From Xanthobacteraceae bacterium (GTDB lineage Bacteria; Pseudomonadota; Alphaproteobacteria; Rhizobiales; Xanthobacteraceae), in assembly GCA_024508855.1 (NCBI GenBank), contig JANINJ010000034.1:1-47380 (forward strand): a stretch of DNA of 47,380 nucleotides, given 5' to 3'. The position numbers and the translations under genes were made by a program. Of this stretch, positions 6,531-26,737 are shown piece after piece. Position 1 is the first letter of the stretch; the number at the start of each line of letters is the position of its first letter. The notes below the pieces were generated by a model, which saw nothing but the letters and a program-made list of their open reading frames with translations, had not been told where the DNA came from and made no database searches.

Positions 6531-8270
6531 GTGATCGTTCGAGCACTCCAGACCGGCAAGGACGCGGCCGGTCTGACTCGCTACCTGTTCGGGCCCGGCA
6601 AGGCCAACGAGCACACGAATCAGCGCATGATCGCCGGCTCGGCCGAACTCACGGGGGAGTGGTCCGGGCAAGCGCTGACCATGCGCGAGGCGACTCACCT
6701 GGGACGCGTGGTCGAGGCGTCCTGGCGTCGCCAGTACGCGCCCGAGTTGGCGATGGTCGGTGCCGGCCAGGGCGGCGTCGCCCGTGAGAACCTGCGGGCC
6801 GGTGATGACGCCGTCGCCGGTCAGGACCACGTCTTCCACGCCACCATCTCGCTGCATCCCAGCGAGGGCCCGTTCACCGACGAACAGTGGGCCGAGATCG
6901 CCGCCAGGTACATGAACGGCATGGGCTTCACCGGGCGTGCCGATCACCCCGACGTGTCCTGGTACGCGGTCCACCACGGCCTGTCGAAGGACGGCAACGA
7001 CCACATCCACATCGTCGCGTGCACCACGCTCCGCGACGGCAGTCGGGTGGACCTGCACAACAGCGGTCGACGCTCGCAGGAAGTGCGCCGCGAGGTCCTG
7101 GAGAAGCTCGACTTCGTTACCCCGCTGCACGAGACCAAGCGCGCCGAGAACACCCCCCGGCAGAGCGACTACACCGCAGCCGAGCACAACATCGCCCGCG
7201 AGCGCGCCAAGGCCGGCCGAGGTCCGTCGACGCCGGACCGGGTGCTGCTGCAGCGCATCCTGCGCGCCGCGGCCGCAGAGGCCACGACCGAGGCCGGCTA
7301 CATCAACAACGTCATCAAGCACCCGCGCATGGAGGTGGTGGCGGCACGCTGGGCGCCGGGCACAGACAAGCAGGAGGTGACCGGCTACAAGATCCGGTTC
7401 AAGGACGGCGTCTGGTTCTCCGCCACGACGCTCTCGCCTGACCTGTCGCTGTCGAAGCTGCGCAAGAACTGGACCGCTGAGACCGACGACTCGCGCTCGT
7501 ACGCGCGAGCGCTCTGGGCCGAGCAAGCACGCGGCGAGAAGCGCGTCGCGACCCCGGACGTTCCCGTACAGCTCGAGCACGCCGCCGCCGAGCTGCGGGC
7601 GGCGAACGACGCTCTCGCGCAACTCGACCCGCACGACCTGGCGGCGTGGAACCACGTCACCGCAGCGGCCGCGGGAGCGACGGCGGTCATGGCTACCGCT
7701 GCACCGCGCGAGGTCGATGCGGAGGGGCGCGACGTTGCCGGGTTCGGCGTCGACGCCGGCCGCGCCTCGGACGTCCTCACCCGCCAGTGGCTCGCTGACA
7801 ACTACCAGGCGCCGGCTGCGCCGAGCGTGCCAACCGGGCTCTCTCGGATGGAGGTCGCGACCCGACACCTGCAGCTCGCCATTCGTGCGGCCGGCACCGA
7901 CCGGCACCATGGCTGGCTCGCGGTGCTCCAGCAGCTGACCCGCACGATGAACGCGATCGCGGACGCCAAGAGCGCACGCGGCGAGGCCGTCGCAGCGATG
8001 ACGCTGCAGCGCGACGCCGTCGCGGCGATGGGGCGCCTCGAGGCGTGGCTCGGTGGCCGCGTCGACGAGCTCGTCGACCAGGGCGCCGGGACCTCCACGA
8101 GCGGCCCCGAGCCTGTGCTCTCCGAGGCTGCCAGAGCTGCCCGGGAGGCGTCCGGGCACGCCACCACGGACCGCAGCTCGACGCCTGCCACAGCGCCGGC
8201 GCACGGTCAGGACGCGACGGTCGACCGCGGCCGGACGCGCGACCACGGTCACGGTCCGCGGCGCAGCTGA
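6531..8270 (+). CDS. Relaxase/mobilization nuclease (VirD2/MobP-like)
   Basis: A 579-residue relaxase that would nick oriT, stay covalently bound to the 5' end and pilot the strand through the secretion channel. The GTG at 6531 is chosen because it follows mobC closely and the protein then opens with VIVRALQTGKDAAGLTRYLFGPG, containing the likely catalytic Tyr (~19). The metal-binding three-His motif is HHGLSKDGNDHIHIV at residues ~148-162. After the nuclease domain comes a long helical region. Near the C-terminus (8118-8159) is LSEAARAAREASGH, which recurs in two other proteins here. The tail is Arg/His-rich, like known type IV secretion signals. Confidence 0.9.
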   Translation: MIVRALQTGKDAAGLTRYLFGPGKANEHTNQRMIAGSAELTGEWSGQALTMREATHLGRVVEASWRRQYAPELAMVGAGQGGVARENLRAGDDAVAGQDHVFHATISLHPSEGPFTDEQWAEIAARYMNGMGFTGRADHPDVSWYAVHHGLSKDGNDHIHIVACTTLRDGSRVDLHNSGRRSQEVRREVLEKLDFVTPLHETKRAENTPRQSDYTAAEHNIARERAKAGRGPSTPDRVLLQRILRAAAAEATTEAGYINNVIKHPRMEVVAARWAPGTDKQEVTGYKIRFKDGVWFSATTLSPDLSLSKLRKNWTAETDDSRSYARALWAEQARGEKRVATPDVPVQLEHAAAELRAANDALAQLDPHDLAAWNHVTAAAAGATAVMATAAPREVDAEGRDVAGFGVDAGRASDVLTRQWLADNYQAPAAPSVPTGLSRMEVATRHLQLAIRAAGTDRHHGWLAVLQQLTRTMNAIADAKSARGEAVAAMTLQRDAVAAMGRLEAWLGGRVDELVDQGAGTSTSGPEPVLSEAARAAREASGHATTDRSSTPATAPAHGQDATVDRGRTRDHGHGPRRS

Positions 8271-8278
8271 TCCAGCAA

Positions 8279-9136
8279 CTACGGGAGCTGAGTGAGGTCT
8301 GCTCGAACGATCCCGTCGGGGCTCGACGTCGTCACCGAGTTGACCCTCCAGCGGCTACCCGCGGGGACGATGAACTGCTCGGCCATGCGGCTGAACGTCC
8401 ACACCGCGTCGCCGATCTCCCGCAGCTCCCGGCTGCGCTGATCCAGCGGCGGGATGTACAGAGCTGCGTGCAGGTTCAGCGTGACGAGTGCCGGCCGATG
8501 CGTGTCGTCGAGCTCCTGGGCCCGCTCGAGGTGAAAGTCGGCAGTCGACCTGGCAAGACTGGCGAACACGTACCCCGGGTCAACGAACTCGTCGCCGGGG
8601 GAGCGGTTCAGCAGGTCGTGAGTGAGCGTGGTGTCGCCGCGCAGAGCCTGAACTGGAACGTCGAGCTGAACCTCGTCACCAAGGGCCGCGAAAGCGTCGG
8701 TGGCCCACGCGATCAGCACGTCGCAGGACGACGCGCCGCAGATGTCAGCGGCCATTCCGTTGAGCGGGTGCGGCCGCCCGGTGCGCAGCTGCAGGTTGAC
8801 GTCATAGGCGCCCACGAACGACAACGATCCGATCGCGTGCAAGTGGTCCCGCAGTGCGCGCAGCTGCCGCTCACCGCTCTCGTTCGCGCGCTCGCCGGCA
8901 GGGCTCCATGCAGCCTCTGGCTGGTACCCATCGAGCTCGGAGGCCAAGTTCTTCAGTCTCACGGCTTCCATGCGTCGCTCGAAGTCGTGCTGCTGCTCCG
9001 CGCGCCAGCGGTCGTCGAACGTCCCGTCCAGCAGCTCCTGTTCATAGATGAGGCCCCGCGAGTAGCACTCGTCGGCCTGCCGCCGCGTCCAGTGCCGGCC
9101 GCTCCTGCACGCGGCGTTGTCGCACAGCACCAACAT
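8279..9136 (-). CDS. Hypothetical protein
   Basis: A 285-residue soluble protein of unknown family. The N-terminus has two or three Cys (CDNAACRSGRHW, DEC) that might bind metal. The rest is mixed alpha/beta with conserved-looking patches (GAYDVNLQLRTGRPHPLNGMAADICGASSCDVLIAWATDAFAALG). It follows the gene at 9151-9915 with a 14-bp gap, so the two form a minus-strand operon convergent with the relaxase gene, leaving only 8 bp between stops and no visible terminator. Confidence 0.7.
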   Translation of the reverse strand: MLVLCDNAACRSGRHWTRRQADECYSRGLIYEQELLDGTFDDRWRAEQQHDFERRMEAVRLKNLASELDGYQPEAAWSPAGERANESGERQLRALRDHLHAIGSLSFVGAYDVNLQLRTGRPHPLNGMAADICGASSCDVLIAWATDAFAALGDEVQLDVPVQALRGDTTLTHDLLNRSPGDEFVDPGYVFASLARSTADFHLERAQELDDTHRPALVTLNLHAALYIPPLDQRSRELREIGDAVWTFSRMAEQFIVPAGSRWRVNSVTTSSPDGIVRADLTQLP

Positions 9137-9150
9137 GATGGGGATGCCCG

Positions 9151-9915
9151 TCAGTCCTGGTCGGAGCGTCGGCTGTGCGCACTGGCGCGCAGCAGTTCGA
9201 CGGCGTCGGCAACATCAGGCTCGGCTAGCCGGGCGCGCATCGCCTCGGCTTGCGGGACATCGCCCGGAGCAGCGCCCAGGCTCCCGATCGCGGCGTCGAC
9301 GCGGCGGCGAGCCGCCCGCAGCTCGCGCTCGCCGACGTCCCGCCAGCGCGCGTGAGCTGACTGGCGTTTCATGCCGGTGGCGACCGCGATGTCTTCCCAC
9401 ACCGCGCCACTGGCTCGGGCCTCCGCGACGGCCGCGTCCAGCTCGTGCTCGGCCTGTCGCACGCGCTCCTGAGCCGCCACGACCCGGGCCAGGGCCTCGC
9501 GACCACCGGCGTGCTCGGTAGTCCAACGGCGCCGGAGCTGCTCCTCGACCTCGCCGCCGTCGGCGACGTAGATGACGTCCTCGTCGGCGGCGTAGATACG
9601 ACCGCCGGAGACGTCCTCGAGGCTGCGCGACGGCACCCGGGCCAGCAGGGCGCTCACCCACTGCTTCTCGGGATCGAGCAGCAGCCCCGAGCGGTCCCGG
9701 CACGCGCACGCGATGCACCAGCCGATCGCCTCGGCCGCGGGGCGGGTCTCGTAGTGAGTTGTCGGCCGACTGGGATCGCTGTCGTCGTAGTGAGAGCCGA
9801 CGATCACCTGGTCGTCGGGAATCCCGCCGCCGCTGATGCCGGCGCCGCGGACGCCGTCCGCGAACACGGGCACGACGTAGCCCTCATGTAGTCCGTCCTC
9901 AGTCATCCAGCCCAT
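9151..9915 (-). CDS. Hypothetical protein with C-terminal helix-turn-helix
   Basis: A 254-residue protein. The N-terminal half contains a tight Cys cluster (GWCIACACRDRSG). A heptad-rich helix (ARVVAAQERVRQAEHELDAAVAEARASG) leads into WEDIAVATGMKRQSAHARW, a good helix-turn-helix of the type seen in small actinobacterial regulators. It could therefore be the transcriptional regulator of this two-gene operon. An inverted repeat at 9939-9963 just upstream is a candidate operator. Start could also be the ATG at 9906. Confidence 0.7.
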   Translation of the reverse strand: MGWMTEDGLHEGYVVPVFADGVRGAGISGGGIPDDQVIVGSHYDDSDPSRPTTHYETRPAAEAIGWCIACACRDRSGLLLDPEKQWVSALLARVPSRSLEDVSGGRIYAADEDVIYVADGGEVEEQLRRRWTTEHAGGREALARVVAAQERVRQAEHELDAAVAEARASGAVWEDIAVATGMKRQSAHARWRDVGERELRAARRRVDAAIGSLGAAPGDVPQAEAMRARLAEPDVADAVELLRASAHSRRSDQD

Positions 9916-9938
9916 GCGAGGGAGTATGTCATGCGCGG

Positions 9939-9963
9939 CTGACAGAACCTAGAAATCTGTCAG
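9939..9963. promoter_or_regulatory. Inverted-repeat operator in divergent promoter region
   Basis: CTGACAGA (9939-9946) and TCTGTCAG (9956-9963) are perfect 8-bp arms around a 9-base loop, with another CTGACA half-site at 9970-9975. The element lies 24 bp upstream of the minus-strand start at 9915, in an AT-richer stretch shared with the + lipoprotein gene. It is a plausible binding site for the helix-turn-helix protein encoded at 9151-9915. Confidence 0.5.
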
Positions 9964-10090
9964 AGATTCCTGACAAATGGCATAACGATTCTTATCGGCA
10001 CATAAGCAACGGGAGTGGGGCATGATCTTCGAGGGCCGCATTACCCAATGTCGGGCCCCCGCGGAGCATGCGTGTTGTACGTTCTGCGCC

Positions 10091-10630
10091 ATGCGCACGG
10101 TTGCCGCGATGGTTGTGTTGTCTATCTCGTTCGTTGTCGCAGGATGCTCCGGCAGCCAGGACGCTGAAAGCCCGAGCAACTCAGGCTCTTCCCCCGGCAG
10201 TGAACCCACATTGGCTGGTGACGGGTCGGGCGCCGGGGGCGGCGCGCAGGACTACTGTGGACTGGTCGATTCCGCCTCCGCGATCAAGGCCGGGTGGGCG
10301 GCAACAGGCGATATCGACGTCGAAGCCGAGCATGACGAGTATCAGAAGATTGTCGCAGCTGCGCCGAGCGACATTCGAGCAGACTGGGAACTCGTCGCGC
10401 AAAGCCACGATGCTGTGGTCGCGGCGTGGGAAGCTGCGGGCCTCTCTCTTGGGACGGTTAACGACGTACTGAACGGCGAAATTGGGCCAGATGCCCCCGA
10501 GTTCGAGCAGGTAACCACCATCTCCCGCGAGAGTGCGTCGGCTCCGCTTGCCGAGAGGATCGAAGCTCAAGGACGCATCGACGAAGCGACGCAGGCTTCA
10601 TGCGGAGTGGATCTGATCGACGCCGATTGA
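10091..10630 (+). CDS. Secreted lipoprotein of unknown function
   Basis: The ATG at 10091 gives a 179-residue precursor with a clean lipoprotein signal: MRT, hydrophobic VAAMVVLSISFV, then lipobox VAGC with Cys at ~19. An upstream in-frame start at 10022 would bury this signal, so it is rejected. After a Ser/Gly-rich linker the mature domain is helical with two Cys (DYCGLVDSAS and TQASCGVDL) that could form a disulfide. Use of A/T is higher than in neighbouring genes, suggesting separate acquisition. There is no clear ribosome-binding site, so it may be leaderless or poorly expressed. Confidence 0.7.
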   Translation: MRTVAAMVVLSISFVVAGCSGSQDAESPSNSGSSPGSEPTLAGDGSGAGGGAQDYCGLVDSASAIKAGWAATGDIDVEAEHDEYQKIVAAAPSDIRADWELVAQSHDAVVAAWEAAGLSLGTVNDVLNGEIGPDAPEFEQVTTISRESASAPLAERIEAQGRIDEATQASCGVDLIDAD

Positions 10631-11050
10631 TCGGTTTCTCGGCGACCTCCCTGCGCAATGGGGGTTCACTCAGAGACCAGCTCGCCCCGGGCGTCGACTT
10701 TGGGACGTAGGCGTAGTGCCGTTGTCTCGCGGCGCGCTGGTGGCCGTCCACCTTGCTTGCCGTGCTGTGGCTCCGTTGCTCGCATTGGATGGTCGGTCGG
10801 GCTCCTAACTGGTTGGTTCGACGCCTCGACCGGGTGCTCATGGCCAGCGCCGTTGCCGTGCGGTTCGCCGATGTGCACGGCGCGGCTGGCGAAGCCGTGC
10901 GGGCGGGGACCGACAGATCGCTTCGACAGGCGGATCGGTCGGACGGTCGTGGTAGCTGCGTCTGCGCCAGGTCTTACGGTTCTTCCAGGCGCGGAACGAC
11001 CGCGACATGACCCCGTGAGATCGCAGAGAAGGCGACCAGAGGACCAGCTC
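10631..11050. other. Unassigned 420-bp region
   Basis: No frame on either strand shows convincing codon bias or a recognisable domain. The open frames that cross it are Arg/Pro-rich and read like shadows. A minus-strand frame near 10930-11010 gives FRAWKNRKTWRRRSYHDRP, which could be the remnant of a basic protein, but I cannot support it. Base composition resembles the lipoprotein gene next to it, so this may be transferred or decayed DNA. Confidence 0.4.
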
Positions 11051-11581
11051 ATGACCAGGCACACCGGACCGCACGTGTTCGTCGACGAGACGAAGAGCCG
11101 TGACTACGTCATGGCTGCGGCTGCGATGCTGCCCGGAGACCTCGCAGCCGCCCGCAAGCAGCTGCGCGGACTGCTGCTTCCCCGTCAGGAGCGGATCCAC
11201 TTCAAGGGCGAGAAGGACGCCCGCCGGCGACAGCTCATGGCGGAGATGTGCAAGCTCGACGTCCAGGTGACGCTGTACATCGCCAAGACCAAGAACCACC
11301 CGGCCGGCCGTTCGGCCTGCATGAAGGCGATCCTCGACGACGCCATCGACGCCCAGGCGCGCATGCTCGTCCTCGAGCTGGACGACTCCGTCGCCATAGC
11401 CGACCGGCGGATGATCGCTCAGCGATTCCGCCTCGAGCCGGCCTCTCCCGAGTATCGGCACCTCCCTGCGAAGGCGGAGCCCCTGCTGTGGATCAGCGAC
11501 GCCGTCGCCTGGTGCTCCCAGCGGGGCGGGGATTGGAAGGCGGCTTGCGCGCCCATCCTCTACGAGGAACGGCTGCTCTGA
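11051..11581 (+). CDS. DUF3800-like protein
   Basis: A 176-residue protein starting at the ATG behind AGAGGACC. An open frame extends upstream to 10658 but lacks coding bias. It begins HVFVDETKSRDYVMAAAAM, like the hhhDEs start of DUF3800 proteins, which have an RNase H-like fold with conserved acidic residues. Further acidic patches are HFKGEKDARRRQLM, LELDDSVAIADRRM and WISDAVAWC. DUF3800 proteins occur in several accessory and defence contexts, but their activity is poorly defined. The neighbours (SRAP and a HEPN-motif protein) make this a possible defence/repair cargo cluster. Confidence 0.65.
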   Translation: MTRHTGPHVFVDETKSRDYVMAAAAMLPGDLAAARKQLRGLLLPRQERIHFKGEKDARRRQLMAEMCKLDVQVTLYIAKTKNHPAGRSACMKAILDDAIDAQARMLVLELDDSVAIADRRMIAQRFRLEPASPEYRHLPAKAEPLLWISDAVAWCSQRGGDWKAACAPILYEERLL

Positions 11582-11733
11582 GCCAGCAGTCAAAAAGGCG
11601 CGAGCCCGGCTCGTTCACCGTCCGGAGAACTGCCGGGCCTACTTCGCAGGGCTACTGCCCCTTGCGAGACCGATTATGCACCCACGGTGCAATCACCATC
11701 AACCCACCATGTCAACGGTCACTCAACGCGGAA

Positions 11734-11763
11734 GCCCCGCGACGTCTCGGGTCATCGCGGGGC
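11734..11763. terminator. Hairpin in the 11.6-11.9 kb intergenic region
   Basis: Perfect 9-bp arms GCCCCGCGA (11734-11742) and TCGCGGGGC (11755-11763) surround a 12-base loop. It lies between the + gene ending at 11581 and the - gene ending at 11878, so it could terminate either. The rest of 11582-11877 shows no gene. Confidence 0.5.
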
Positions 11764-11877
11764 CTCCGGAGCAGACACTCCCACGACGGGCCGACACTTC
11801 GCCGCCGATCCCTCCAAGTCGGGACCTTCGCCCCGGCTGGCCGGGGGTCACTCGTCGCGCGCGGGGGATCAGCCAGC

Positions 11878-12066
11878 TCAGGAAATCTCGCGGTCCACGA
11901 CCCGGAACGACGCGACGCGCCAGCCCGCCGGCATCCGCTCGAGCGCCGCCGCCTTGGCCTCGTCGTAGTCGGCCGCCTCGGTCACGATCCGGTCGAACGC
12001 GAGGACCTCCTCGCCCCGGTACCCCTCCGCCGGCTTCTCCTGGATCACGGTGACGAGCTTGAGCAC
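11878..12066 (-). CDS. Small conserved-looking hypothetical protein
   Basis: A 62-residue protein (MLKLVTVIQEKPAEG...) with a beta-strand start, a helix with YDEAKAAALERMPAGW, and a beta-strand end (RVASFRVVDREIS). Composition and codon bias look genuine. It is divergent from the SRAP gene, with 35 bp between starts, so the two share a promoter region. No family is recognised; a role as a small partner or regulator is only a guess. Confidence 0.6.
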   Translation of the reverse strand: MLKLVTVIQEKPAEGYRGEEVLAFDRIVTEAADYDEAKAAALERMPAGWRVASFRVVDREIS

Positions 12067-12101
12067 GCAGCAAGGCTAAGGGCCTGCCTATGCTCGGGAG
12101 C

Positions 12102-12863
12102 GTGTGCGGTCGCTATGCCTCTACCCGTAGCTCCGATGACGTCGCTGACTTCTACGTCGCCGCGGTCAAGGGCGCCGGCCTAGGGGCGCAGTACAACGTC
12201 GCGCCCACGACCTCCATCTATGCCGTCGTCGACCGCCAGGACAAGGAGTCCGGCGCGATCGAGCGCCAGCTGCACGACGTGCGCTGGGGTCTCGTACCGT
12301 CCTGGGCGAAGGACACCAAGATCGGTAGCCGGCTCATCAACGCCCGGGTCGAGACGATCGCCGAGAAACCGAGTTGGCGGACGGCGTACCGCCGTCGACG
12401 GGCGGTGATCCCGGCAGACGGCTACTACGAGTGGGTGGCCGAGACGGACGAGGCGGGCAACACCTTCAAGCAGCCGTACTACCTGCACCCGGCCGCCGGC
12501 ACGGGGCTGAGCTTCGCCGGCCTCTACGAGTGGTGGCCTGACCCTGAGAAGGACAAGGACGACCCTGACCGCTGGCTGTGGTCGGCCGCGATCATCACCT
12601 GCGAGGCCACCGGCCCCGCTGGCGAGATCCACGACCGGACACCCGTCATCCTCCCGGCTGACCGGATCGACGCATGGCTCGACCCGACATGTCAGGACCC
12701 GGCCGCGATCGCTGAGGTTCTCGAGGGCATCCGCCCGCCGCTCCTCGGCATCCGCGCAGTCTCCCGCGAGGTCAACCGGGTCGGCACGAACGGGCCTCAG
12801 CTGATCGCTCCCCTGCGCGTCGACGAAGTCGACCAGACCATCCAGCTGAGCCACGTAGCCTGA
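12102..12863 (+). CDS. SRAP-domain protein (HMCES/YedK family)
   Basis: A 253-residue SRAP protein, which forms a stable covalent crosslink with abasic sites in single-stranded DNA and shields them. The GTG at 12102 is chosen over the ATG at 12090 because SRAP requires Cys at position 2 after Met removal, and this gives (M)CGRYA. Other family hallmarks are YNVAPT, RWGLVPSWAKD, NARVETIAEKPSWR, RRRAVIPADGYYEW with the catalytic Glu, and HDRTPVIL with the catalytic His. On a conjugative plasmid, such a protein could protect the single strand on arrival. A stem (12858-12889) follows the stop. Confidence 0.92.
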   Translation: MCGRYASTRSSDDVADFYVAAVKGAGLGAQYNVAPTTSIYAVVDRQDKESGAIERQLHDVRWGLVPSWAKDTKIGSRLINARVETIAEKPSWRTAYRRRRAVIPADGYYEWVAETDEAGNTFKQPYYLHPAAGTGLSFAGLYEWWPDPEKDKDDPDRWLWSAAIITCEATGPAGEIHDRTPVILPADRIDAWLDPTCQDPAAIAEVLEGIRPPLLGIRAVSREVNRVGTNGPQLIAPLRVDEVDQTIQLSHVA

Positions 12864-12902
12864 ACGCGCACCCTGCGCGAGGCTGAGGAGGAACCCCGGG
12901 TG

Positions 12903-13931
12903 ATGGACGTGCGAGCCGTGTTCGAGCTGCCCATGCATATCTGGATCACATGCGACGCTCTGGGCAAGACGTACCCGACCGGGTTCGGACCCGTTCGCTT
13001 CAACGTGGTGATGCCCGGTATTGAGCCGAAGCCGCTCGGAGGGCCACCGGCCGTCGCCGGCGTTGCCGACCACCCCGACCTATCCGGGGAGGACGTGGTC
13101 TGGGCCCGAACGAACACCGCGGGATGGGTGCCTGAGTCACTGCGCCCAGCCGCCACTCTGCATCGGGTGGCGCTGACGGACGTCGAAGCGCCAGTCGACG
13201 AGCGCCAGGCGTGGCGCACCGCGGATGCTCAGTTGGCCGAGTACGTCGAGCCCTGGTATGACAACGTCCGAACATGGGTCGAGATCCTCACTGGTCAGGA
13301 CCTCGATCCGAAGCACCGCGTCTACGACGCGAAGTTCGTTGGCGAGGGCCTGACCTTCATCGAGCCCCCTCACGACGACGCTATCGGCATGCAACTCACC
13401 ACCCCGCACGTCCTGCCGCTGCGGGCCAAGGAGTGGCAACTCGTGCTCCGCATCGTGGCCGAGGGCGCTGAGCCGCCGGTCGAGGAGATGCTGAGCCGTG
13501 ACGCCCGCGCAGCTCTACGCCGCAACGCTCCTCGCCGTGCCGCCCTCGAGGCCGCGACCGCTGTTGAGGTCGTCCTGAGCCGGCACGTCCGCGAGAAGGC
13601 CGACAGCGGGGACCTTCCGGAGAACCAGCGCAAGCGCATCAAGCCGTCGACGGCACTCGGCGACTTCATTGACATCGCCGAAAGGTCGAACCTGCCGCTC
13701 GCGGTGACGTTCGACCGGCTGCGATTGCTGAAGGACCGGCGCAACAAGGCCGCCCACGAAGGCAAGGCGCCCACCACCTGGGACGCGAGCGAGTCGGTCC
13801 AGACGATGATCGACTTCCTCGGCGCACACGGACTGTACCGGCGCACCGGCGAGCGAGAGCCGGACGGCGGCGAGCTCCTAGTCGCGCCGGCCAGCGCCGG
13901 TGACGATGCCTCGGGCGAGACGGCTTCCTGA
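12903..13931 (+). CDS. Protein with C-terminal HEPN-type RNase motif
   Basis: A 342-residue protein; the ATG at 12903 follows AGGAGGAA. The N-terminal ~190 residues are mixed alpha/beta and unassigned. The C-terminal part is helical (RNAPRRAALEAATAVEVVLSRHV, then LGDFIDIAERSNLPLAVTFDRL) and includes DRRNKAAHEG, an exact R-N-x3-H arrangement, the Rx4-6H active site of HEPN ribonucleases with the favoured polar residue after Arg. HEPN proteins are frequent toxins and anti-phage effectors. No partner antitoxin such as a MNT nucleotidyltransferase is next to it. Confidence 0.75.
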   Translation: MDVRAVFELPMHIWITCDALGKTYPTGFGPVRFNVVMPGIEPKPLGGPPAVAGVADHPDLSGEDVVWARTNTAGWVPESLRPAATLHRVALTDVEAPVDERQAWRTADAQLAEYVEPWYDNVRTWVEILTGQDLDPKHRVYDAKFVGEGLTFIEPPHDDAIGMQLTTPHVLPLRAKEWQLVLRIVAEGAEPPVEEMLSRDARAALRRNAPRRAALEAATAVEVVLSRHVREKADSGDLPENQRKRIKPSTALGDFIDIAERSNLPLAVTFDRLRLLKDRRNKAAHEGKAPTTWDASESVQTMIDFLGAHGLYRRTGEREPDGGELLVAPASAGDDASGETAS

Positions 13932-14017
13932 CCGAATCCGCTGCGGCCGTCCGTTCCCAGTGCAAGCCTGAGGAGTCCGCGCGGACCCGCGCGGACGTGC
14001 CGACGGGAGGGACAGCA

Positions 14018-14215: not shown

Positions 14216-14258
14216 GCCTCACCGTGCTACCGCTCGTCGGCATGCCTCAGGGTGCCGA

Positions 14259-14390
14259 GTGGCTGATCATCATGGCCTCATCGGTGGCGTCGTGATCGTG
14301 CCGCTCGCGCTGGTCATTTGGCTGATCGTCAAAGCTCGCCAGCCGTTGACCGGGCCCGCTAGCGCCACGCGGGCACCTCTCCGAGCGTGA
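14259..14390 (+). CDS. Possible 43-residue single-pass membrane peptide
   Basis: A GTG-started frame gives ADHHGLIGGVVIVPLALVIWLIVKARQPL, a clear membrane segment followed by a basic tail. An AGGG (14249-14252) precedes it at acceptable spacing. Too short for strong codon evidence. It might be a small membrane toxin or accessory peptide, but it could be chance. Confidence 0.3.
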   Translation: MADHHGLIGGVVIVPLALVIWLIVKARQPLTGPASATRAPLRA

Positions 14391-18168: not shown

Positions 18169-21100
18169 TCAGCGGCTCAACGGACGCCCCGGCGCCCGAG
18201 GCGCCACCGCTGCCGATCGGTCGACCTGTGCCTCCCCTGCACCCGCTCCTGCCGGCGCAGCGCTGGGCTGCGCGAACGTCGTCGACGTCGGCCGTCGGCC
18301 GTGCCCGGATGCCTCGAGCGCGGCACGCGCTGCGTCACTCAGCTCCGGTCCGTCGCCGTCCACGACCGCCGCCGATGCGGGCGGGGCGTTCTCGGGCTCG
18401 GCCTGGGCAGAGAGGGCGGCGTCGACGTCGTCGACCCGCTGCTTCGCCGCGACCAGGTCCTCGGCGTGCGGGAACGGGCGTCCGAGCTTGCTCTCGACGT
18501 CGTCGAGGATCCGGCTCGCCTCAACGATCTCGGATTCGTAGGTGCTGATCCGCTTGCCGATCGCCGTGGCCTTGTTCTCGATGCTGCGGATCAGGCCGAC
18601 GCTCGCCGCCTGCAGCTCGCGCAGGCTGGTCCGGTGCGCGGAGCCGGGCACGCCGGCCAGCGCGACCACCGCCATGTGCTCGGGGTTGCGGTCGATCGCC
18701 GGCGCACGATCGCCGGTCACGGTCACGTCGTGACCGGCGACGGTGCCGAGCACGAGCGGTTCGTCGTACCGCGACGTCGACAAGATCACCTGGTGGTTGC
18801 GGGTAGCCCACGAGGCCACCGCGGCCGCAGCGTCGGCCCGCGAGGTGAACACGGCGCCCGCGACCGTCATCCGGAACGCGTCGCCGGTCGTGTCGATCGT
18901 GCGGCCCGCCGCAGTCCGCAGCTCGTCGACGTCGCGCTGGCGGGTCTCGATCTTCCCTTCGGCGCTGTGCCGGGTCTGGCGCAGCGCGGCCTGGGCGCGG
19001 TGGTGCGCGACCTCTTGGCGGCGCAGCTTCTGGTACGCGGCGTCGGCGTTGGCCTTCTCCAGCACCAGCGGGTTGCCGGAGGCCAGTGCCTTGGCCTCGG
19101 CGGCCGAGAGGGCGGTATCGCCGATGTCCTCGATCTCGCGGGTGTCGAGGCGGCCCTTCATCACCTGGGCGATGAAGGTCGCCTTGCGGCCCACGGTCTG
19201 CCACGAGTACGCGTCGAAGGAACGCTCGACGACGTAGCGGAAGATCGCGACCTCGTCGTTCTGGTTGCCCTGGCGGATGCCCCGGCCGTCGCGCTGCTCG
19301 AGGTCGGCTGGCCGCCACGGGCAGTCGACGTGGTGCATTGCCGAGAGCCGGTTCTGGACGTTCGTGCCGACACCCATCTTGGCGGTCGACCCGATCAGCA
19401 CCGCCACGTGGCCAGCACGCGCCGAGGCGAACAGCCGAGCCTTGGCGGCGTCGTTCTTCGCCTCGTGGATGAACCGGACGGCGTCGGGCGCCATGCCGCC
19501 CTCGATCAGCTTGCGCCGCAGCTCGGTGTAGGCATCCCACCTGGTCTCGTGCGGGGTGCCCAAGTCGCTGAACACCAGCTGGAGGCTGCCGCGCACCGGG
19601 CTCGGCTCGCCCGTGGCCTCGTCGACGTAGACGTTGCCGCGGTTCTCGCGCCAGTGCTCGAGGATGCGGCCTGCGACCGCGTCGAGCTTGACCGTGCCGC
19701 TCTGCTGCGCGGTCTGGTCGACCAGCCGCAGGTCGAGCGCGGCCTTCCGGCCGTCGGTCGAGATCAACAGCATGTTGTCCTCGTGCGCGCTGACCTGGCG
19801 GCTCGCGACCTTCTCGGCCCGGTCTGCGATCGCGCCGATGTACTCCTCGAGCTCGGGGGTCGGCTGCAGCACGACAGTCTCGACGTCGCGCTTGCCGTCG
19901 CTGGCCCGCGGTGCCAGCTCGGGCACCGGGAGGTCGAGGTCCTCGGCCGTCTTCACGTCTGCGAAGACGTGCCACATGCGCAGCATCTCGGGGACGTTCT
20001 GGAACTTCGCGAACCGGGTCTTGAGGCGGAACCCGCCCGCGGGACCCATCTCCATCTCGGTGACCTGCGAGCCGAAGGTGGCCGCCCAGCCGTCGAACGA
20101 CGTCACGCCGGCAGCGGCCAGCAGATCGGGGCGCAGGTAGCGCTGCATCACGTACGCCTCGGTCACCGAGTTCGCCAGCGGTGTCGCGGTGGCCATCGTG
20201 GCCACCCGATCGCCGTACGTCTGGCGCAGGTACTCCAGCTTCATGTGCAGGTCGGTGGCCTGCTGGGATCCCTCGATCGCCGCGTCACGGATGTTCGAGA
20301 CGGTCGCGAGGTTCTTGTACATGTGCGCCTCGTCGACCACCAGATAGTCGATCCCGGTGTCCTGGAAGTTCACCCCCGGGTCGCGCGGCATCGCGAGTGC
20401 CTTCTTGTGCCGCTCCTCGACGGCCAGGATCCGCTTCTCGATCCGCTTCACGCTCATGCTCTCGGCCGCCTTCGCGGCCTCCAGCCCGGCCCGGAGCTCG
20501 GTGAGCTGCTGGTCGATGTAGCGGGCCTCGAAGTCGCCGGAGAGCCCGATCTTCTTGAACGCACCCTGCGTCACGATGATCGCGTCCCAATCGTTCGCGG
20601 CCGCGCGGGCCACGAACAGCCGGCGCTTGTCGCCGGTCAGGTCGGCGGTCGACGCCGCGAGCACCCGCGCCCGCGGGTACGCCTGCAGCCACTCGCGGCT
20701 GAACTGCTCGAGCATGTGGTTGGGAACCACGATCGCCGGCTTCGAGACGAGGCCCATCCGCTTCATCTCGGTGGCGCCGCAGATCATCTCGAGCGTCTTG
20801 CCGGCACCGACCTGGTGGAACAGGCCCACCGACGGCTCGGCGATCATCCGGGCCACGGCGGCCCGCTGGTGCGGGCGCAGCGTGATCGACGCGGTCAGCC
20901 CGGGCAGGGTCAGGTAGTCGCCCGCCTCGGCGTAGTCGCGCAGCCGGATCGAGTTGAACCGTCGGTTGTAGATCTCGGCGAGCTCGCTGGCCCGCTGCGG
21001 GTCTTCCCAGACCCACTCGGAGAACCGCTCCTGCAGCGCGTCGGCCTTCTCCTGGGCGGCCGTCGTCTCGACCGGGTTGAGCACCCGACGTTTGCGCCCA

Positions 21101-24042
21101 TCAGGTCCCTCGATCTCGTCGGAGACCTCGATGCGCTTCTGCTCCATCAGCGCCTGGGCAATCTCCGTCGCCGGACGGCGCTCGGTGCCCCAATCGACGT
21201 TAGCCCGCACACCGTTGCGGTTGCCGCGGACCTCCCACTCGCCGGGCATCGGGTTCTCGACCCGCACGCTGCGGTCCTCGAGCACCTCCTCGAGGAACTG
21301 CTGGTGCAGCTGCGGGCTGATCCACACCGCACCGAGCCGCGCCTCGATCTCCTCCACGCCGATCGGGTCGGGCAGGACCTCACGCAGCGCCTCGACGTTG
21401 ACCCCGAACCGGTCATCGGTGGCCGCCGCCTCGACGGCGGCGTCGAGCTTGGAGCGCACGTCGCCCGACAGATAGTCGGGTGCATGCACCAGCTCGCCGG
21501 TGACCGGGTCGTCGTAGACCAGGTCACCGAGCGCGGTCCGGGCCTCGTCCTCGTCGACGCCGAGCAGCCGCGCGACGAACGGCAGCTCGACGCGGCCGGT
21601 CTCGTCGAGCGACAGAGCGATCGCCTCAGACGGCGTCTCCGCGCCCTGCTTCACCGGCCTCGGCACGACCACGCGCTGCACCAGCAGCGACGCCGGCGTG
21701 CTGGTCTGCGACTCCTCGTCGAACCGCTCCAGGGCCCGCACGAGCGCGCTGTGCGGGTCCTGCCGGAACGTGACCATCGACCGCGGCGTGATCCGCGCCA
21801 TGACCTCGGCGCCCCGCTCCGGGGCACCGGTTGCCGGGTCCAGCACCGGCGTACCGGTCTCGGGGTCGGTCACCGGCTCGTAACGGCCGGTGCCGCGCAG
21901 GGTGTAGCGGTTCAGCGGCCCGTACTTGGCGACGTACCGCTCGTAGTCGGCCCGCAGCGCGGAACGCTGCTCCTGCATCGCCGGGGTGTCCTCGGCGTCG
22001 CCGGCCTCGGCCTCGAGCAGGCGCCGAGCACCGTCACGCAGCTCGAGCAGCGCCCGCAGCTCGACCGCCTGGGTCTTGGGGACCTGCAGAGGCTCAAGGC
22101 GGCCGCCGTGCGCGACACGGAACTCGCTGCCCTCGGCCACGATCGACCCGTCCCACAGGTCCGTCAGCTGGCTGACCGCCTCGCGTCGCTCGGCGGCCTG
22201 CTCGACGCTGACCTGGGTGAACACCTGGCCGCGGCCGCGGGCCCGGTTCACGATGTCGGACAGCGCGACAGCGAGGTGCCCGTCGACGGTGCTCAGATCG
22301 GGGCTGACCACGTGCAGCGTCTCGCCGCCGTACATGCCCTGCCCGACCCGCAGCGTGCCGAGGATGTGGTCAGGGTGCTCGTCGAAGTAGTTGTTCACCC
22401 GCACGACCACCGGACCCTCGGGCCCGTCGAGCTGGCGCGGCGTGACGGTCTCCCAGGTCAGATCCCGCGGCGGTACGCCGTCGGCACGACGCTGGAAGAT
22501 CAGCAGGTCCGTCACGGCCTCCGTGCCGGCGGCTCGACGGTGGGCGCCCGTGGGCAGACGGACCGCGCCCACCAGGTCCGCCATGCCGTTCATCTCGCGG
22601 CGGGCAGCGGGGTTGGTGGCATCCATCGTGAAGCTGCTCGTCAGGACCGCGACCATGCCACCGGGCCGGGTCAGCGCCAGCGACTTGAGGATGAAGTGGT
22701 TGTGCATCGAGTGCCCGCCGGCGTTGTGCTGCGGGTCGTGCAGGCTGACGTCTGCGAACGGCACGTTGCCCACCACGGCGTCGAAGTGGCCGCGCGGGAA
22801 CCGCGTCGTCGCGAACGACTCCCCCCTGATGTCGGCCTGCGGGTACAGGCCGCGGGCGATCGCCGCGGTGGTCGGGTCAAGCTCGACCCCGACCATCCGG
22901 GCGCCCTCGGGCGCCATGCCGATGAACGTGCCCGAGCCGCAGCCCGGCTCCAGCACGTCTCCCCCGGCGAAGCCGAGGTCGGTCAGCGTGATCCAGACCT
23001 GGTCGACGTACGCCGCATCGGTGTAGTGCGCGTTGATCGTCGTACGCCGGGCAGCGTCGTAGGCCGCGTCGTCGAGCAGGTTGCGCAGCTGCTCGCGCTC
23101 CCCGGCCCACTCGGGCCTTTGGTCGTCGAAGACCTGCGGGATCGCGCCCCACGACGACCAGCGGGCGAGGACCTGCTGCTCCTCGACCGTTGCGGGCCGG
23201 CCCTCGGCCTCGAGCCGGCGGGCGGTCTCGATCGCTGCGACGTTCGCAGCGAACCGCGCCTTGCCGCCCGAGGGCGCCAGCTGGTCCTGGGAGCGCGGCC
23301 GGAACGCTACTGCTCGCTGGGCAGGCTCCCGGTCGGCAGGAACGGCGTCAGCGCCCGGATCCGGTCGTCGAGCTCCGTCGAGCTCATCTCCTCCGGCTCC
23401 CGCTCCAGCCGGACCAGCGGGAGCAGGGCCGTCAGCCGGGCCCGCTGCTCCTCCTGGTCGTCGCTGAGCAGTGGCTGGCTCCAGCCCTCCCGCTCGGCCT
23501 CCTCCTCGGCTTCCTGCATCAGCCGCTGGAGCGAGTCCTCGATCATCGCCGGTCCCGGCAGCATCGCCAGCAGCTCGGCCAGTTCCTCCGCCCGCGAGGA
23601 CGGCTCCGGCGTCACCGAGTAGACCAGCTCCGTCAGCACCAGTTCCTCGGCCTGCTTCTGGATCGTCCGCAGTTGCCCGACCTGATCCAGGTACTCCAGA
23701 TCGGCCGGGAGCGTCGCCTCCAGCCGGGAGCTGGTCTCCGCCACCTGCGCGGCCACCGTCTCCCCCAGCGTCTCGAAGAACTCGCTCGGGTCCTCCAGCG
23801 CCGCGTACTTCTGCGGCGCGTGGGTCCTCCAGTGCGCCTGGGCCAGCAGCCCGTACCGATTCATCGAGCTCCCCTTCTGCGTCATCCGTCGCAAATAGGT
23901 CGAGAGGTGGTTGATCGCTGACGCGGACGCCGCCTGCGGGCGACGTCGACGCAGAGCGTGCCTCGTCGAGGCGCGCATCGGCGACCGGTTCTGGGGTGCC
24001 CCAAAGGTCGAGCTCGAGCTGCTCGTCGTCCGGTCGCGCCAC
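18169..24042 (-). CDS. Giant DarB-like N6-adenine methylase/SNF2 helicase
   Basis: An ORF of 1957 codons. A short N-terminal part (LELDLWG, PPLDLF) is followed by ~185 low-complexity codons that overlap a second gene. A methylase domain then has SAM motif VLEPGCGSGTFIG (~366) and GNVPFADV in place of NPPF. A SNF2-type helicase has HQVGAGKTLEM, DEAHMYKN (~1238), ATATPLANS and DGRGIRQGNQND. The C-terminus carries LSDAARAALEASGH (18301-18342), shared with the relaxase. Phage P1 DarB has the same methylase-helicase plan and blocks type I restriction after being injected. A similar anti-restriction role is inferred. No ATG/GTG/TTG exists in frame within the overlap, so the start must be at or near 24042. 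Confidence 0.85.
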   Translation of the reverse strand: MARPDDEQLELDLWGTPEPVADARLDEARSASTSPAGGVRVSDQPPLDLFATDDAEGELDESVRAAGPGALEDPRAAEVRGAGGPERVLRDAGGDGGRAGGGDQLPAGGDAPGRSGVPGSGRATADDPEAGRGTGADGAGLLGDAGAVLAGGGTGRAAGDAAGTGDDRGLAPAADAGSRGGGRAGGLEPATAQRRPGGAAGPADGPAPAGPAGAGAGGDELDGARRPDPGADAVPADREPAQRAVAFRPRSQDQLAPSGGKARFAANVAAIETARRLEAEGRPATVEEQQVLARWSSWGAIPQVFDDQRPEWAGEREQLRNLLDDAAYDAARRTTINAHYTDAAYVDQVWITLTDLGFAGGDVLEPGCGSGTFIGMAPEGARMVGVELDPTTAAIARGLYPQADIRGESFATTRFPRGHFDAVVGNVPFADVSLHDPQHNAGGHSMHNHFILKSLALTRPGGMVAVLTSSFTMDATNPAARREMNGMADLVGAVRLPTGAHRRAAGTEAVTDLLIFQRRADGVPPRDLTWETVTPRQLDGPEGPVVVRVNNYFDEHPDHILGTLRVGQGMYGGETLHVVSPDLSTVDGHLAVALSDIVNRARGRGQVFTQVSVEQAAERREAVSQLTDLWDGSIVAEGSEFRVAHGGRLEPLQVPKTQAVELRALLELRDGARRLLEAEAGDAEDTPAMQEQRSALRADYERYVAKYGPLNRYTLRGTGRYEPVTDPETGTPVLDPATGAPERGAEVMARITPRSMVTFRQDPHSALVRALERFDEESQTSTPASLLVQRVVVPRPVKQGAETPSEAIALSLDETGRVELPFVARLLGVDEDEARTALGDLVYDDPVTGELVHAPDYLSGDVRSKLDAAVEAAATDDRFGVNVEALREVLPDPIGVEEIEARLGAVWISPQLHQQFLEEVLEDRSVRVENPMPGEWEVRGNRNGVRANVDWGTERRPATEIAQALMEQKRIEVSDEIEGPDGRKRRVLNPVETTAAQEKADALQERFSEWVWEDPQRASELAEIYNRRFNSIRLRDYAEAGDYLTLPGLTASITLRPHQRAAVARMIAEPSVGLFHQVGAGKTLEMICGATEMKRMGLVSKPAIVVPNHMLEQFSREWLQAYPRARVLAASTADLTGDKRRLFVARAAANDWDAIIVTQGAFKKIGLSGDFEARYIDQQLTELRAGLEAAKAAESMSVKRIEKRILAVEERHKKALAMPRDPGVNFQDTGIDYLVVDEAHMYKNLATVSNIRDAAIEGSQQATDLHMKLEYLRQTYGDRVATMATATPLANSVTEAYVMQRYLRPDLLAAAGVTSFDGWAATFGSQVTEMEMGPAGGFRLKTRFAKFQNVPEMLRMWHVFADVKTAEDLDLPVPELAPRASDGKRDVETVVLQPTPELEEYIGAIADRAEKVASRQVSAHEDNMLLISTDGRKAALDLRLVDQTAQQSGTVKLDAVAGRILEHWRENRGNVYVDEATGEPSPVRGSLQLVFSDLGTPHETRWDAYTELRRKLIEGGMAPDAVRFIHEAKNDAAKARLFASARAGHVAVLIGSTAKMGVGTNVQNRLSAMHHVDCPWRPADLEQRDGRGIRQGNQNDEVAIFRYVVERSFDAYSWQTVGRKATFIAQVMKGRLDTREIEDIGDTALSAAEAKALASGNPLVLEKANADAAYQKLRRQEVAHHRAQAALRQTRHSAEGKIETRQRDVDELRTAAGRTIDTTGDAFRMTVAGAVFTSRADAAAAVASWATRNHQVILSTSRYDEPLVLGTVAGHDVTVTGDRAPAIDRNPEHMAVVALAGVPGSAHRTSLRELQAASVGLIRSIENKATAIGKRISTYESEIVEASRILDDVESKLGRPFPHAEDLVAAKQRVDDVDAALSAQAEPENAPPASAAVVDGDGPELSDAARAALEASGHGRRPTSTTFAQPSAAPAGAGAGEAQVDRSAAVAPRAPGRPLSR
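23307..23864 (-). CDS. Helical protein nested in the methylase/helicase ORF
   Basis: A 185-residue protein (MNRYGLLAQAHWRTHAPQKYAALEDPSEFFETLG...), nearly all helical and acidic. The ATG follows GAAGGGGAGC. Third codon positions in this frame are almost all G or C, whereas the overlapping methylase/helicase frame shows no such bias here, so this frame is the selected one between 23310 and 23864. I recall similar short proteins beside such helicases on actinobacterial mobile elements but cannot name the family. Its stop lies inside the helicase frame (GCA-GTA-GCG), so every base of the gene is also open in the other frame. Confidence 0.8.
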   Translation of the reverse strand: MNRYGLLAQAHWRTHAPQKYAALEDPSEFFETLGETVAAQVAETSSRLEATLPADLEYLDQVGQLRTIQKQAEELVLTELVYSVTPEPSSRAEELAELLAMLPGPAMIEDSLQRLMQEAEEEAEREGWSQPLLSDDQEEQRARLTALLPLVRLEREPEEMSSTELDDRIRALTPFLPTGSLPSEQ

Positions 24043-24121
24043 GCGTCACTCCTAGGTCGCCGTGATCCTCGCATGCCCTCTACCCCGATTCCCTCTCTCC
24101 TCACCAGCGGCCTGCGCAGCC

Positions 24122-26737
24122 TCAGCGGCGCAGCGTGCGGCCCTGGGTGTGCTTGACCCCGGACCCTCGCTGCACCTTCGCCTGCACGCCCTCGCGACGT
24201 GCCGGCGCGCTCTGCAGCTGGTCCTGCGTGGACTGGGAGAAGCCGTGCGACGAGGCGTCCCTCGCGCTCTCCGCGTGCTCCGACATCTGGTGTCGCTGGG
24301 CTTCGTCTCGGCGGTCGTACGCCTTGGCCTCCGCCGTCTCCGCGTCGGTCGTGATGCCCTCGTCGAGCTGCAGCTGATGCTCGGCCGCGGCCGAGCGGTC
24401 CTCGAGCTGCTCGACCCGCTGCGCACGCGGGTCCGAGTCGGTCAGCGTCGACGGCGTCGAGTCGCCGGCATCGCCGTCCCCCGTCGCCCCGTCAGCCACC
24501 TGACCCGCCCGCGCAGCCGCGAGGTCGCTCGCCGCGGCGTCTGCGTCGGACCGGCTGCCCGCCTCGACCCGCTGCGCCTCGTGGCGGGCGCCCCGGGCGG
24601 CGTCGAGCTCGACACCACGGCGCGCCAGGAGCTCGCGGTCGATCGGGTCCTCGACGTACGGGCTCACCTTCGCGATGAGGTCGTCGAACGACGCCACCGT
24701 GCTCCGGTTGCCGTCGACGAGGGTGTAACCCACCCGCTCCTCCGGCGAGGTGCGGATGTAGCGCTCCACGACCGTCTCTGCGGCCGTGGGTGCCTGCGGG
24801 AGCTCCGCGAGGCTGCTGCGCAGCAGCGCGGGCTTGGTCTCCCACGCCTTGGCCGGGTCCTTGTCGGGAACCTCGACCTGCCGCACGTCGGTGCCGCGCT
24901 CGCTGAGCTTGAAGAAGTCGCCCTCGGTCGCCTTCTGCCCGGCCTCGTCGTTGTCGTTGGCCAGCCACACGCGGCCGTTGGCCTTCTCCGTGATCGCGTT
25001 CGCCTGGGTGTCGGTCATCGCGGTGCCCATCGTGCTGACACCCTGCGCCTTGCCCTCCGAGGCCAGCGTCACCGCGAGCGCGTCGAAGGGTCCCTCGACC
25101 CGGACCAGCCGGGCACCGGGCTGCGCCTCGTACAGGCCGAAGACGTGGTCGCCCTTGCGGAACGCGGCCGTCTCCGCGGTGTTGCGGACCTTCGGCGCCC
25201 GCGGGTCGCCCGACAGATCCCGGCCGAGGAAGCCGACCAGCTCGCCGGTCTCGTGGTGCCGCACCCCCATCATCATCCGGTCACGGAAGATGTCGCGGAC
25301 CCCGAACTTCCCCGGCTCCGCCAGCCCGGCCGCGACCATCTCGCCGTCGGTGGCACCCTTGGACCGCAGGTGATTGGTCAGGTTCTGCCACCCCGGTCGC
25401 GTGGCACCGAGCACCCACGGACCGGACTCGAAGTCCGCTCCCAGCCGCTCGGTGAACTTCCGGTGCGCCGGCGTCCCGGGGCGCAGGTTCGACGCGTAGT
25501 ACTCCGCGGCCATCTCGTTGAGCTCGATCACCCGATCGCCGCTCACCAGGTCTGCAGAGCCACCGGCCGTCGCCGTCGCGGCAGCCGTCGACGTCGACGA
25601 GGTCGCGGCGACGCCGCCCTGTGCGGCTTCCTCGCTGCGCCGAGCACGGTCCTCGGCGTTGCGGCGGGCCTCGGTGTTCACCGACGCCTGCTCCGTCAGT
25701 GCGTCGATGAGCATCGCCTGCGGGTCGAGGCCCCGACGCTCGCGCATCATCGCTGCGAGCCGGTCGGCCGACTTCCGGGCGCCGACGTCGCCCGTGAGCG
25801 AGGCAGTCGACGCGTCGCGCCACGCGGTTGCGACCTCGTCGGCCGTCGCCGCGTCGAACCGGCCCGGCGTCAGGTAGGTGTGCCAGGAGTGGTCCTGGGT
25901 CGCCTCCAAGTCGACGGGCGGGCCGTCGGTCAGGCCCGGGACGTGATCGTCGAGCCGGCCCATCCCGGCCTGGTGCATGGCGGCCTCGTGTTCGCCGATC
26001 TCGGTCGAGACCCGCGCATCGCGGCCCTCGTCCCATGCCCGCGCCAGCGCTGCGTCACGAGCGTCCTCGTCGACGACGCCCGCCTCAGTGCGCCAGCGAT
26101 CGGACGCGAACTCGTCGGCTTGGCCGACGTGCACCGCCCACTGCTCCCACTGCGAGCGCTCGGGGAGCTGCCCCGCCTCGGAGTAGTACTGCCAGTCGGC
26201 GTGGAACGCCTCCTCGACCGCACCTGCGGGCGGCCGGTCGACCTCGAGGGGTCGCACCTCGTCGGGGATGGAGTACCACGACGGTGCGTGCGTGGCCGCC
26301 AGCCCGTACGCCTCGTTCATCGACAGCAACTTCGCGGCCGGGGCCGGGTCTGCCGGCAGCCGCGACGTGTCGGTGAAGTTGATCAGCACCGACGGGTGTT
26401 GGCCGTGAGCCTGCATGATCCTGGCGGCCATGTCCCGCTCGGCGAACCGCGCCGTCGGGTCCATGCCCGACCACGCCGCCGCGGCCGCCCACTTCTGCGA
26501 CGCGGCCACCGGGTGCAGCTTCTCCAGCCGCCCCTCCGAGGTCCACGGCAGGTACTGCTGGCGAGCGGCGTCGCGGTTCGCCAGCCACTCCTCCCGAGAG
26601 CGCGCCGCGGACTCTCGCGACTGCTCCTGCCGGCGTCGGGCATAGCGCTCCATCACCTGCGACAGGCCCGTCACCGCGGCACGCAGTGCCCGGTCCAGCT
26701 CGTGCCCGGCTTCGAACTCCTCATGCCCTGCGCTCAT
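24122..26737 (-). CDS. Toprim/DnaG-like primase domain protein, possible secreted substrate
   Basis: An 871-residue protein. The N-terminal ~400 residues are helical and unassigned. A DnaG-like core follows (LNEMAAEYYASNLRPGTPAHRKFTERLG, then FRDRMMMGVRH). The Toprim centre has VRVEGPFDALAV (~545) and LANDNDEAGQKA (~592), giving the Glu and Asp-x-Asp metal ligands. No CHC2 zinc finger is present, so it probably needs a partner to find its template. The C-terminal coiled-coil tail includes MSEHAESARDASSHG (24245-24283), resembling the motif in the relaxase and the methylase/helicase. Plasmid primases such as RP4 TraC and ColIb Sog are known to be transferred during conjugation. The start overlaps the preceding stop (ATGA). 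Confidence 0.82.
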   Translation of the reverse strand: MSAGHEEFEAGHELDRALRAAVTGLSQVMERYARRRQEQSRESAARSREEWLANRDAARQQYLPWTSEGRLEKLHPVAASQKWAAAAAWSGMDPTARFAERDMAARIMQAHGQHPSVLINFTDTSRLPADPAPAAKLLSMNEAYGLAATHAPSWYSIPDEVRPLEVDRPPAGAVEEAFHADWQYYSEAGQLPERSQWEQWAVHVGQADEFASDRWRTEAGVVDEDARDAALARAWDEGRDARVSTEIGEHEAAMHQAGMGRLDDHVPGLTDGPPVDLEATQDHSWHTYLTPGRFDAATADEVATAWRDASTASLTGDVGARKSADRLAAMMRERRGLDPQAMLIDALTEQASVNTEARRNAEDRARRSEEAAQGGVAATSSTSTAAATATAGGSADLVSGDRVIELNEMAAEYYASNLRPGTPAHRKFTERLGADFESGPWVLGATRPGWQNLTNHLRSKGATDGEMVAAGLAEPGKFGVRDIFRDRMMMGVRHHETGELVGFLGRDLSGDPRAPKVRNTAETAAFRKGDHVFGLYEAQPGARLVRVEGPFDALAVTLASEGKAQGVSTMGTAMTDTQANAITEKANGRVWLANDNDEAGQKATEGDFFKLSERGTDVRQVEVPDKDPAKAWETKPALLRSSLAELPQAPTAAETVVERYIRTSPEERVGYTLVDGNRSTVASFDDLIAKVSPYVEDPIDRELLARRGVELDAARGARHEAQRVEAGSRSDADAAASDLAAARAGQVADGATGDGDAGDSTPSTLTDSDPRAQRVEQLEDRSAAAEHQLQLDEGITTDAETAEAKAYDRRDEAQRHQMSEHAESARDASSHGFSQSTQDQLQSAPARREGVQAKVQRGSGVKHTQGRTLRR

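Follow-up and report, generated by a model that had tools for sequence, protein, structure and literature searches.

The window, meaning here the whole stretch of 47,380 nucleotides that was analysed, carries a set of genes for conjugative transfer. On the forward strand, a MobC/NikA-type relaxosome protein (6098..6523; PF05713, 25.4 bits, above the cut-off) is encoded upstream of a MobA/VirD2-type relaxase (6459..8270 as the longest open reading frame; PF03432, 4.6e-12). The true start of the relaxase is perhaps near 6531, as judged from the alignment with its counterpart in the Pimelobacter simplex plasmid pB-N39, to which it is 67% identical. The genes described next, up to position 32944, lie on the reverse strand. 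These include an SNF2 helicase/methyltransferase (18169..24042, start uncertain), a DnaG-type primase with DNAG_N and Toprim domains (24122..26737; PF08275, 1.2e-15, and PF13155, 5.2e-13), and a DUF4913 protein (26734..27744; PF16259), the gene for which is directly downstream of that for a VirD4-like type IV coupling protein (27744..29576; PF02534, 1.2e-25; TraG-D_C, 2.6e-24). The transfer operon also encodes an ATP/GTP-binding protein (29664..31370) and a SCO6880-family protein (31388..32944; NF042935, 1.7e-106). The former had no match in the Pfam search and takes its name from the annotation of a pB-N39 gene that it resembles in C-terminus and gene position. Together, the relaxase, the MobC-type protein, the coupling protein and the SCO6880-family protein bear out the conjugation setting proposed in a preliminary description of this DNA. 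The label DarB-like, given there to the methylase/helicase, is likewise correct: PHROG 10089, "DarB-like antirestriction", matches its residues 172-1907 with 1360 bits. In Pfam, this protein matches SNF2-rel_dom (1.4e-6) and, slightly below the cut-off of that model, Methyltransf_25 (1.1e-5). A protein of the endonuclease/exonuclease/phosphatase family (PF03372) is also found among the transfer genes, at 37342-39399.

The first and last 55 bases of the window (1-55 and 47326-47380) are identical, which suggests that the contig is complete and closes into a circle, as a plasmid of about 47.3 kb. At 2257-2311 there is a third copy of this end, 80% identical. The 16S gene of the assembly has its best matches in Bosea (93.5%), Methylosinus and Microvirga records, and the GC fraction is 0.58-0.65 in the eight readable stretches out of ten sampled from the assembly, compared with 0.66-0.73 in 2-kb steps along the window. 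The best plasmid matches of the relaxase, the methylase/helicase and the primase are actinobacterial. The contig is thus probably an actinobacterial plasmid within an alphaproteobacterial assembly, of which it would be a contaminant. Genome searches centred on that assembly returned just the window, because the assembly is that of an alphaproteobacterium, and they are not informative on actinobacteria. A contig scan with the primase as query gave a single distant relative, 29% identical, in a deltaproteobacterial record.

The relaxase, the methylase/helicase and the primase share a short motif, or tag, near their C-termini. The tag is LSEAARAAREASGH in the relaxase (8118..8159, forward strand), LSDAARAALEASGH in the methylase/helicase (18301..18342, reverse strand) and MSEHAESARDASSHG, of 15 residues, in the primase (24242..24286, reverse strand). 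The preliminary description had placed the first two exactly, whereas the range that it gave for the primase, 24245-24283, is narrower than the tag and encodes SEHAESARDASSH. Between the tag and the end of the protein there are 36 residues in the relaxase, 43 in the methylase/helicase and 39 in the primase, with net charges downstream of the tag of +2, +4 and +6, respectively. The relaxase and methylase/helicase tags are identical at 12 of 14 residues, and the primase tag is a more divergent copy. In a six-frame regular-expression scan, the pattern occurred nowhere in the window beyond these three places.

That the three C-termini are alike, as first claimed from inspection, is real. When the last 70 residues of the 33 called window proteins were compared in all 528 pairs, the three cargo pairs had the top three alignment scores (81, 61 and 57), the third of them tied by one low-complexity pair with a z of 1.3. 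The z values of the cargo pairs are 7.4, 6.8 and 5.0, and their scores were reached by 0 of 1000 shuffles in each case; the likeness of the tags thus exceeds chance. At the level of DNA, a codon-by-codon comparison of the relaxase tag with the methylase/helicase tag shows the same base at 12 of 14 first, 12 of 14 second and 4 of 14 third positions. Since the first two positions agree and the third has drifted, the peptide is conserved and the DNA has not been recently copied, on which grounds a recent duplication was rejected as the origin of the tag.

In other plasmids, tags of this kind are found on the same proteins and on further ones. The closest relative of the window is pB-N39, and a short-peptide tblastn search found this Pimelobacter plasmid (in two records) and, weakly, one place in Streptomyces. 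In pB-N39 the tag is kept on the relaxase, the methylase/helicase and the primase, so that its absence from the corresponding proteins of a close relative, the outcome named at the outset as refuting, is not what is seen. The tag is also present there on a fourth protein of 261 residues, encoded directly downstream of the primase gene; for this protein, Pfam gave no match, and the plasmid collection yielded no relative apart from the two Pimelobacter records. In Microbacterium amylolyticum, the sequence TGPVT is found 13-15 residues before the stop in four unrelated proteins, namely the methylase/helicase, a zeta toxin, a Fic protein and a protein without assigned function. Shuffling of 32 Microbacterium tails, which held three of these four proteins, gave TGPVT in a mean of 0.004 tails and never in more than one in 20,000 rounds. 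In the same plasmid, the end of the zeta gene, which encodes the tag, is part of a perfect 100-nt repeat (record L010:19785-19884 and 21785-21884); the copies are exactly 2000 bases apart and flank a DNA methyltransferase gene.

Other combinations are observed elsewhere. In Micromonospora maris, for instance, three proteins have AFP-type tags, namely the methylase/helicase, a zeta toxin and the product of the gene that follows the relaxase; in Sinomonas, one tag is common to the methylase/helicase and the relaxase; in Amycolatopsis, YGYPRSTR is common to the primase and a small protein without assigned function; and in two Streptomyces plasmids, the zeta toxin has a tag in common with the product of the gene after the relaxase. 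The relaxase tag of Citricoccus, LDPEVQAMLDRLNAGHGRSATEA, joins an FP-type helix with a GH turn like that of the window. The class of tags is absent in 11 of the 27 plasmids, and only two of these 11, from Brevibacterium and Microbacterium, have a tag of their own by eye. Among the 24 plasmids in which the relaxase tail was read, a relaxase tag is recognisable by eye in five: the window, pB-N39, Sinomonas, Citricoccus and Natronoglycomyces. Neither of the two relaxases of U41 has a tag visible by eye, and the tail of the Kocuria relaxase, which lies in several pieces, was not counted. This low number speaks against a role of the tag in export, for the relaxase is the only substrate sure to require a signal. 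Thus, the motif was rightly ascribed to the relaxase, the methylase/helicase and the primase, but it is not a property of these three alone, as toxins and other proteins also bear it and many relaxases have no visible tag. Tagged proteins are encoded directly after the relaxase at L011:30564-31586, L013:26706-27761, L020:38901-40931 and L041:13867-16212, and the relaxases there are without visible tag; for those in L011 and L020, Pfam gave nothing above the cut-off. As a conjecture, where the Micromonospora and Streptomyces plasmids have their tag on the protein after the relaxase, this protein might serve the relaxase in trans.

The preliminary description had called for a comparison of how the motif varies within each plasmid, and the outcome is positive. 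In this comparison, the last 80 residues of proteins of different types were aligned in pairs, either matched (from the same plasmid) or mismatched, and scored as z against residue shuffles. With the core types, namely relaxase, methylase/helicase, primase, zeta and Fic proteins, 38 pairs from 23 plasmids had a mean z of 1.93 when matched and 0.76 when mismatched, a difference reached in 0 of 20,000 permutations; in the N-terminal control there was no effect (2440 of 20,000). Removal of the window and pB-N39 leaves 31 pairs from 21 plasmids, with a count of 26 of 20,000. When the protein after the relaxase is added to the core types, again without these two plasmids, it is 0 of 20,000 for 49 pairs. 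Three choices were made after the data had been seen: the class "gene after the relaxase", the set of 24 tag strings used in the profile described below, and the division into tag-positive and tag-negative plasmids. The results for the core types are independent of these choices.

Similar results had been obtained with an earlier, smaller set. With the protein after the relaxase included, 47 pairs had a mean z of 1.91 when matched, compared with 0.83 (0 of 20,000 permutations; N-terminal control, 6635). This count was 1 of 20,000 once the window had been left out (44 pairs, 19 plasmids), and 22 with pB-N39 left out too. For the core types of the smaller set, the counts were 0 with all plasmids, 2 without the window and 132 without the window and pB-N39. 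In this set, the N-terminal 80 residues without the window gave 5435 of 20,000, and two internal segments showed no effect (15,118 and 18,924 of 20,000). The co-variation is seen in the last 80 residues and not in these other segments, and this is the C-terminal position that is also that of type IV secretion signals. Pairs with Fic proteins are mostly near zero, with the highest z in Microbacterium (1.8) and Kocuria (2.4).

Some features of the sample define these numbers. No cargo pair came from pA-N39, Nocardioides QY071 or Paenarthrobacter YJN-5; the first of the two U41 relaxases was taken, as was one relaxase each for Dermacoccus and Nocardia. The script-based gene calls missed some genes: a 242-residue protein of Amycolatopsis was added by hand, and the Microbacterium zeta protein is absent from the scans of called proteins and present in the cargo comparison. 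An unselective scan, in which all C-termini of 706 proteins were compared with each other at z >= 4.5, gave similar C-termini of unrelated proteins in 43 of 12,271 pairs within plasmids and in 123 of 35,403 between plasmids, with no excess within; its N-terminal control was slightly higher within (55 of 12,271 versus 118 of 35,498). The co-variation is thus limited to a small set of proteins.

A profile of the motif was also built from 24 tags, with the plasmid group under test left out each time, and the tagged proteins were ranked among all proteins of their own plasmid. They ranked first in 12 of 24 cases and in the top three in 19. In the controls, these numbers were 2 and 2 for N-terminal, 0 and 2 for reversed, and 2 and 4 for shuffled sequences. 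The tagged proteins of the window, at ranks 1, 3 and 5 of 28, were the weakest together with those of pB-N39, at 3, 6, 7 and 14 of 31, so that in this test the GH-type tag of the window is only weakly linked to the FP-type tag found elsewhere. Citricoccus and U41 were added after the tags had been chosen and are outside the profile. The methylase/helicase and relaxase of Citricoccus rank 1 and 2 of 31, and the methylase/helicase of U41 ranks 1 of 27. A Yimella protein with an N-terminus like that of the window primase, from an early sample and also outside the profile, ranks 1 of 27. In the other 11 of the 14 plasmids outside the profile, no candidate cargo exceeded the highest score reached by an N-terminus of its own plasmid; the Brevibacterium and Microbacterium plasmids with other tags by eye are among these. 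A profile from the methylase/helicase tags alone had little power, with the other matches near the controls; its best non-helicase match is the relaxase of Sinomonas, a plasmid that was in the training set.

The DUF4913 protein encoded beside the coupling protein is a candidate for recognition of the tag. PF16259 is found above the cut-off in 20 of 26 plasmid records, in one of them barely, and also in the window. It is present in all 16 tag-positive plasmids (window included) and in 5 of the 11 tag-negative ones, an association with a Fisher p of 0.0016, or 0.0026 without the window and pB-N39, for a split made post hoc and plasmids that are related to each other. The single-sequence fold predicted for the DUF4913 protein is poor (mean pLDDT of 56.6), and the literature searched, which left out most subscription papers and all preprints, holds no mention of DUF4913. 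This protein may be the reader of the tag or an adaptor, and the association is a lead only.

Taking these observations together, the tag is likely an address peptide that directs proteins, by their C-termini, to the type IV (conjugative) secretion machine of their own plasmid, where a VirD4-like or DUF4913 protein would read it. Judging from its sequence, the tag would begin as a short helix, acidic at the start, and continue through a G/F-H/P turn into a loose basic tail. Its bearers would have their targets in the incoming DNA or in the recipient. In the window they are the relaxase, the DarB-like methylase/helicase and the primase, to which other plasmids add Fic and zeta toxins and further proteins. 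Candidate readers are the VirD4-like coupling protein and the adjacent DUF4913 protein. From there, we infer, the tagged proteins would pass into the recipient, either together with the DNA or alongside it. Once there, the relaxase would close the strand, the primase would start the second strand and the DarB-like protein is predicted to counter restriction, and toxins or other tagged proteins would act on the recipient itself. Reader and tag would evolve together, which would give each plasmid its own version of the tag.

The main rival holds that the tag is a docking peptide that gathers the relaxase, the helicase and the primase on one partner within the donor cell, for instance the DUF4913 protein, a relaxosome protein or a DNA-bound platform, and is no export signal. 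Sharing of the tag, its co-variation and its position would all follow from a common partner as well, and the association of DUF4913 with the tag class fits such docking. By contrast, the zeta and Fic toxins that are tagged in other plasmids have no evident part in a DNA-processing complex of the donor. Moreover, MobF relaxases belong to the proteins known to be exported, and in a relative plasmid a primase domain is fused to one of them, which also argues against docking in the donor. We thus regard donor docking as unlikely. The fusion in question is encoded at L008:30443-36199 in Dermacoccus nishinomiyaensis, where a MobF relaxase carries DNAG_N and Toprim domains, and the same arrangement is suggested for several other actinobacterial plasmids, in which the primase match falls on genes annotated as MobF. 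The methylase/helicase of Micromonospora sp. NBC_00821 likewise includes a fused DNAG_N domain. Thus, the activities of the three window proteins also occur combined within one protein.

Two further explanations fare much worse. A tag that governs stability or turnover, by degradation or protection, and perhaps clears the proteins after transfer, would also be short and C-terminal; nevertheless, a host proteolysis tag is expected to be specific to the host and not to the plasmid, and why it should co-vary within plasmids is not apparent, which makes this very improbable. It is equally hard to believe that the tails are functionless, alike through low complexity or the copying of gene 3′ ends within a plasmid, as in the one perfect 100-nt copy in Microbacterium, given the drift of third codon positions (4 of 14, versus 12 of 14 at the first and second) and the failure of shuffles of the same residues to match the observed scores.

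An address peptide for export would have precedents, as C-terminal signals of type IV secretion systems are of a known kind, which the tag resembles in its C-terminal position, its occurrence on functionally unrelated proteins within a system and the net positive charge of the residues after it. In Bartonella, VbhT, the TraA relaxase and the Beps carry a BID domain with a positively charged tail, as set out by Harms et al. 2017 (PMC5675462). There, a single C-terminal signal is common to a relaxase and a Fic toxin of a conjugative plasmid, much as tags occur here on some relaxases and on Fic toxins. The Bartonella signal, however, is a domain of alphaproteobacterial substrates (PMC5675462), whereas the tag is a short peptide in actinobacteria that, unlike BID, occurs on four or more protein families and varies between plasmids. 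No BID domain was found by Pfam in the three window proteins at an E of 0.01. The same study proposes that a PezT toxin belonging to another conjugation system is likewise a substrate, anticipates that more toxins of toxin-antitoxin systems travel with conjugative DNA, and calls short signals of this type notoriously difficult to predict (PMC5675462). Against the PezT model, the two zeta toxins scanned here gave weak matches. For the F plasmid, according to a 2024 mSphere study (PMC11288057), conjugation systems export other proteins, for which a signal at the C-terminus, in many cases with positive charge, can be sufficient. The F-plasmid signals differ from each other within a single system, whereas here a shared motif co-varies with the plasmid, and nearly all tested F-plasmid substrates also pass through two other conjugation systems (PMC11288057). 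Polyvalent proteins, multidomain effectors, have been proposed to travel with conjugative DNA (Iyer et al. 2017, PMC5512222), and the accessible sections of that paper describe no C-terminal tag common to separate proteins. What seems new is a short actinobacterial tag that extends across several protein families and varies by plasmid; among the matches listed, the literature searched, again without most subscription papers and all preprints, holds no description of such a tag.

In Gram-positive bacteria, the known functions of type IV secretion systems are nearly all limited to DNA translocation, which a 2025 review (PMC12857230) calls surprising; one exported effector is named there as an exception, and effector export is treated as a long-standing question. 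Tentatively, and with less confidence than in the address peptide itself, it can be proposed that actinobacterial conjugative plasmids are multi-effector injection systems, in which a private tag and a DUF4913 protein beside VirD4 would load a set of proteins that act on the recipient. If so, plasmid-specific tags would stop co-resident plasmids from loading each other's cargo. Co-variation of tags within plasmids would also offer a way to predict type IV secretion substrates in actinobacteria, and the tags already name concrete candidates, among them one Fic and several zeta toxins.

The DarB protein of phage P1 is an antirestriction protein packaged in the capsid. The methylase/helicase of the window resembles it as a methyltransferase-helicase that would arrive with the DNA; the route of P1 DarB is the capsid, whereas here it is likely the conjugative apparatus. 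The DarB-like query also matches a protein of 5247 residues, with the annotation DEAD/DEAH box helicase, that is encoded by the Streptomyces plasmid NZ_CP107821 (L040:13588-29331). This plasmid, which encodes phage portal and capsid proteins, was kept outside the counts on account of these phage structural genes and of the absence of a type IV secretion system from the stretch seen.
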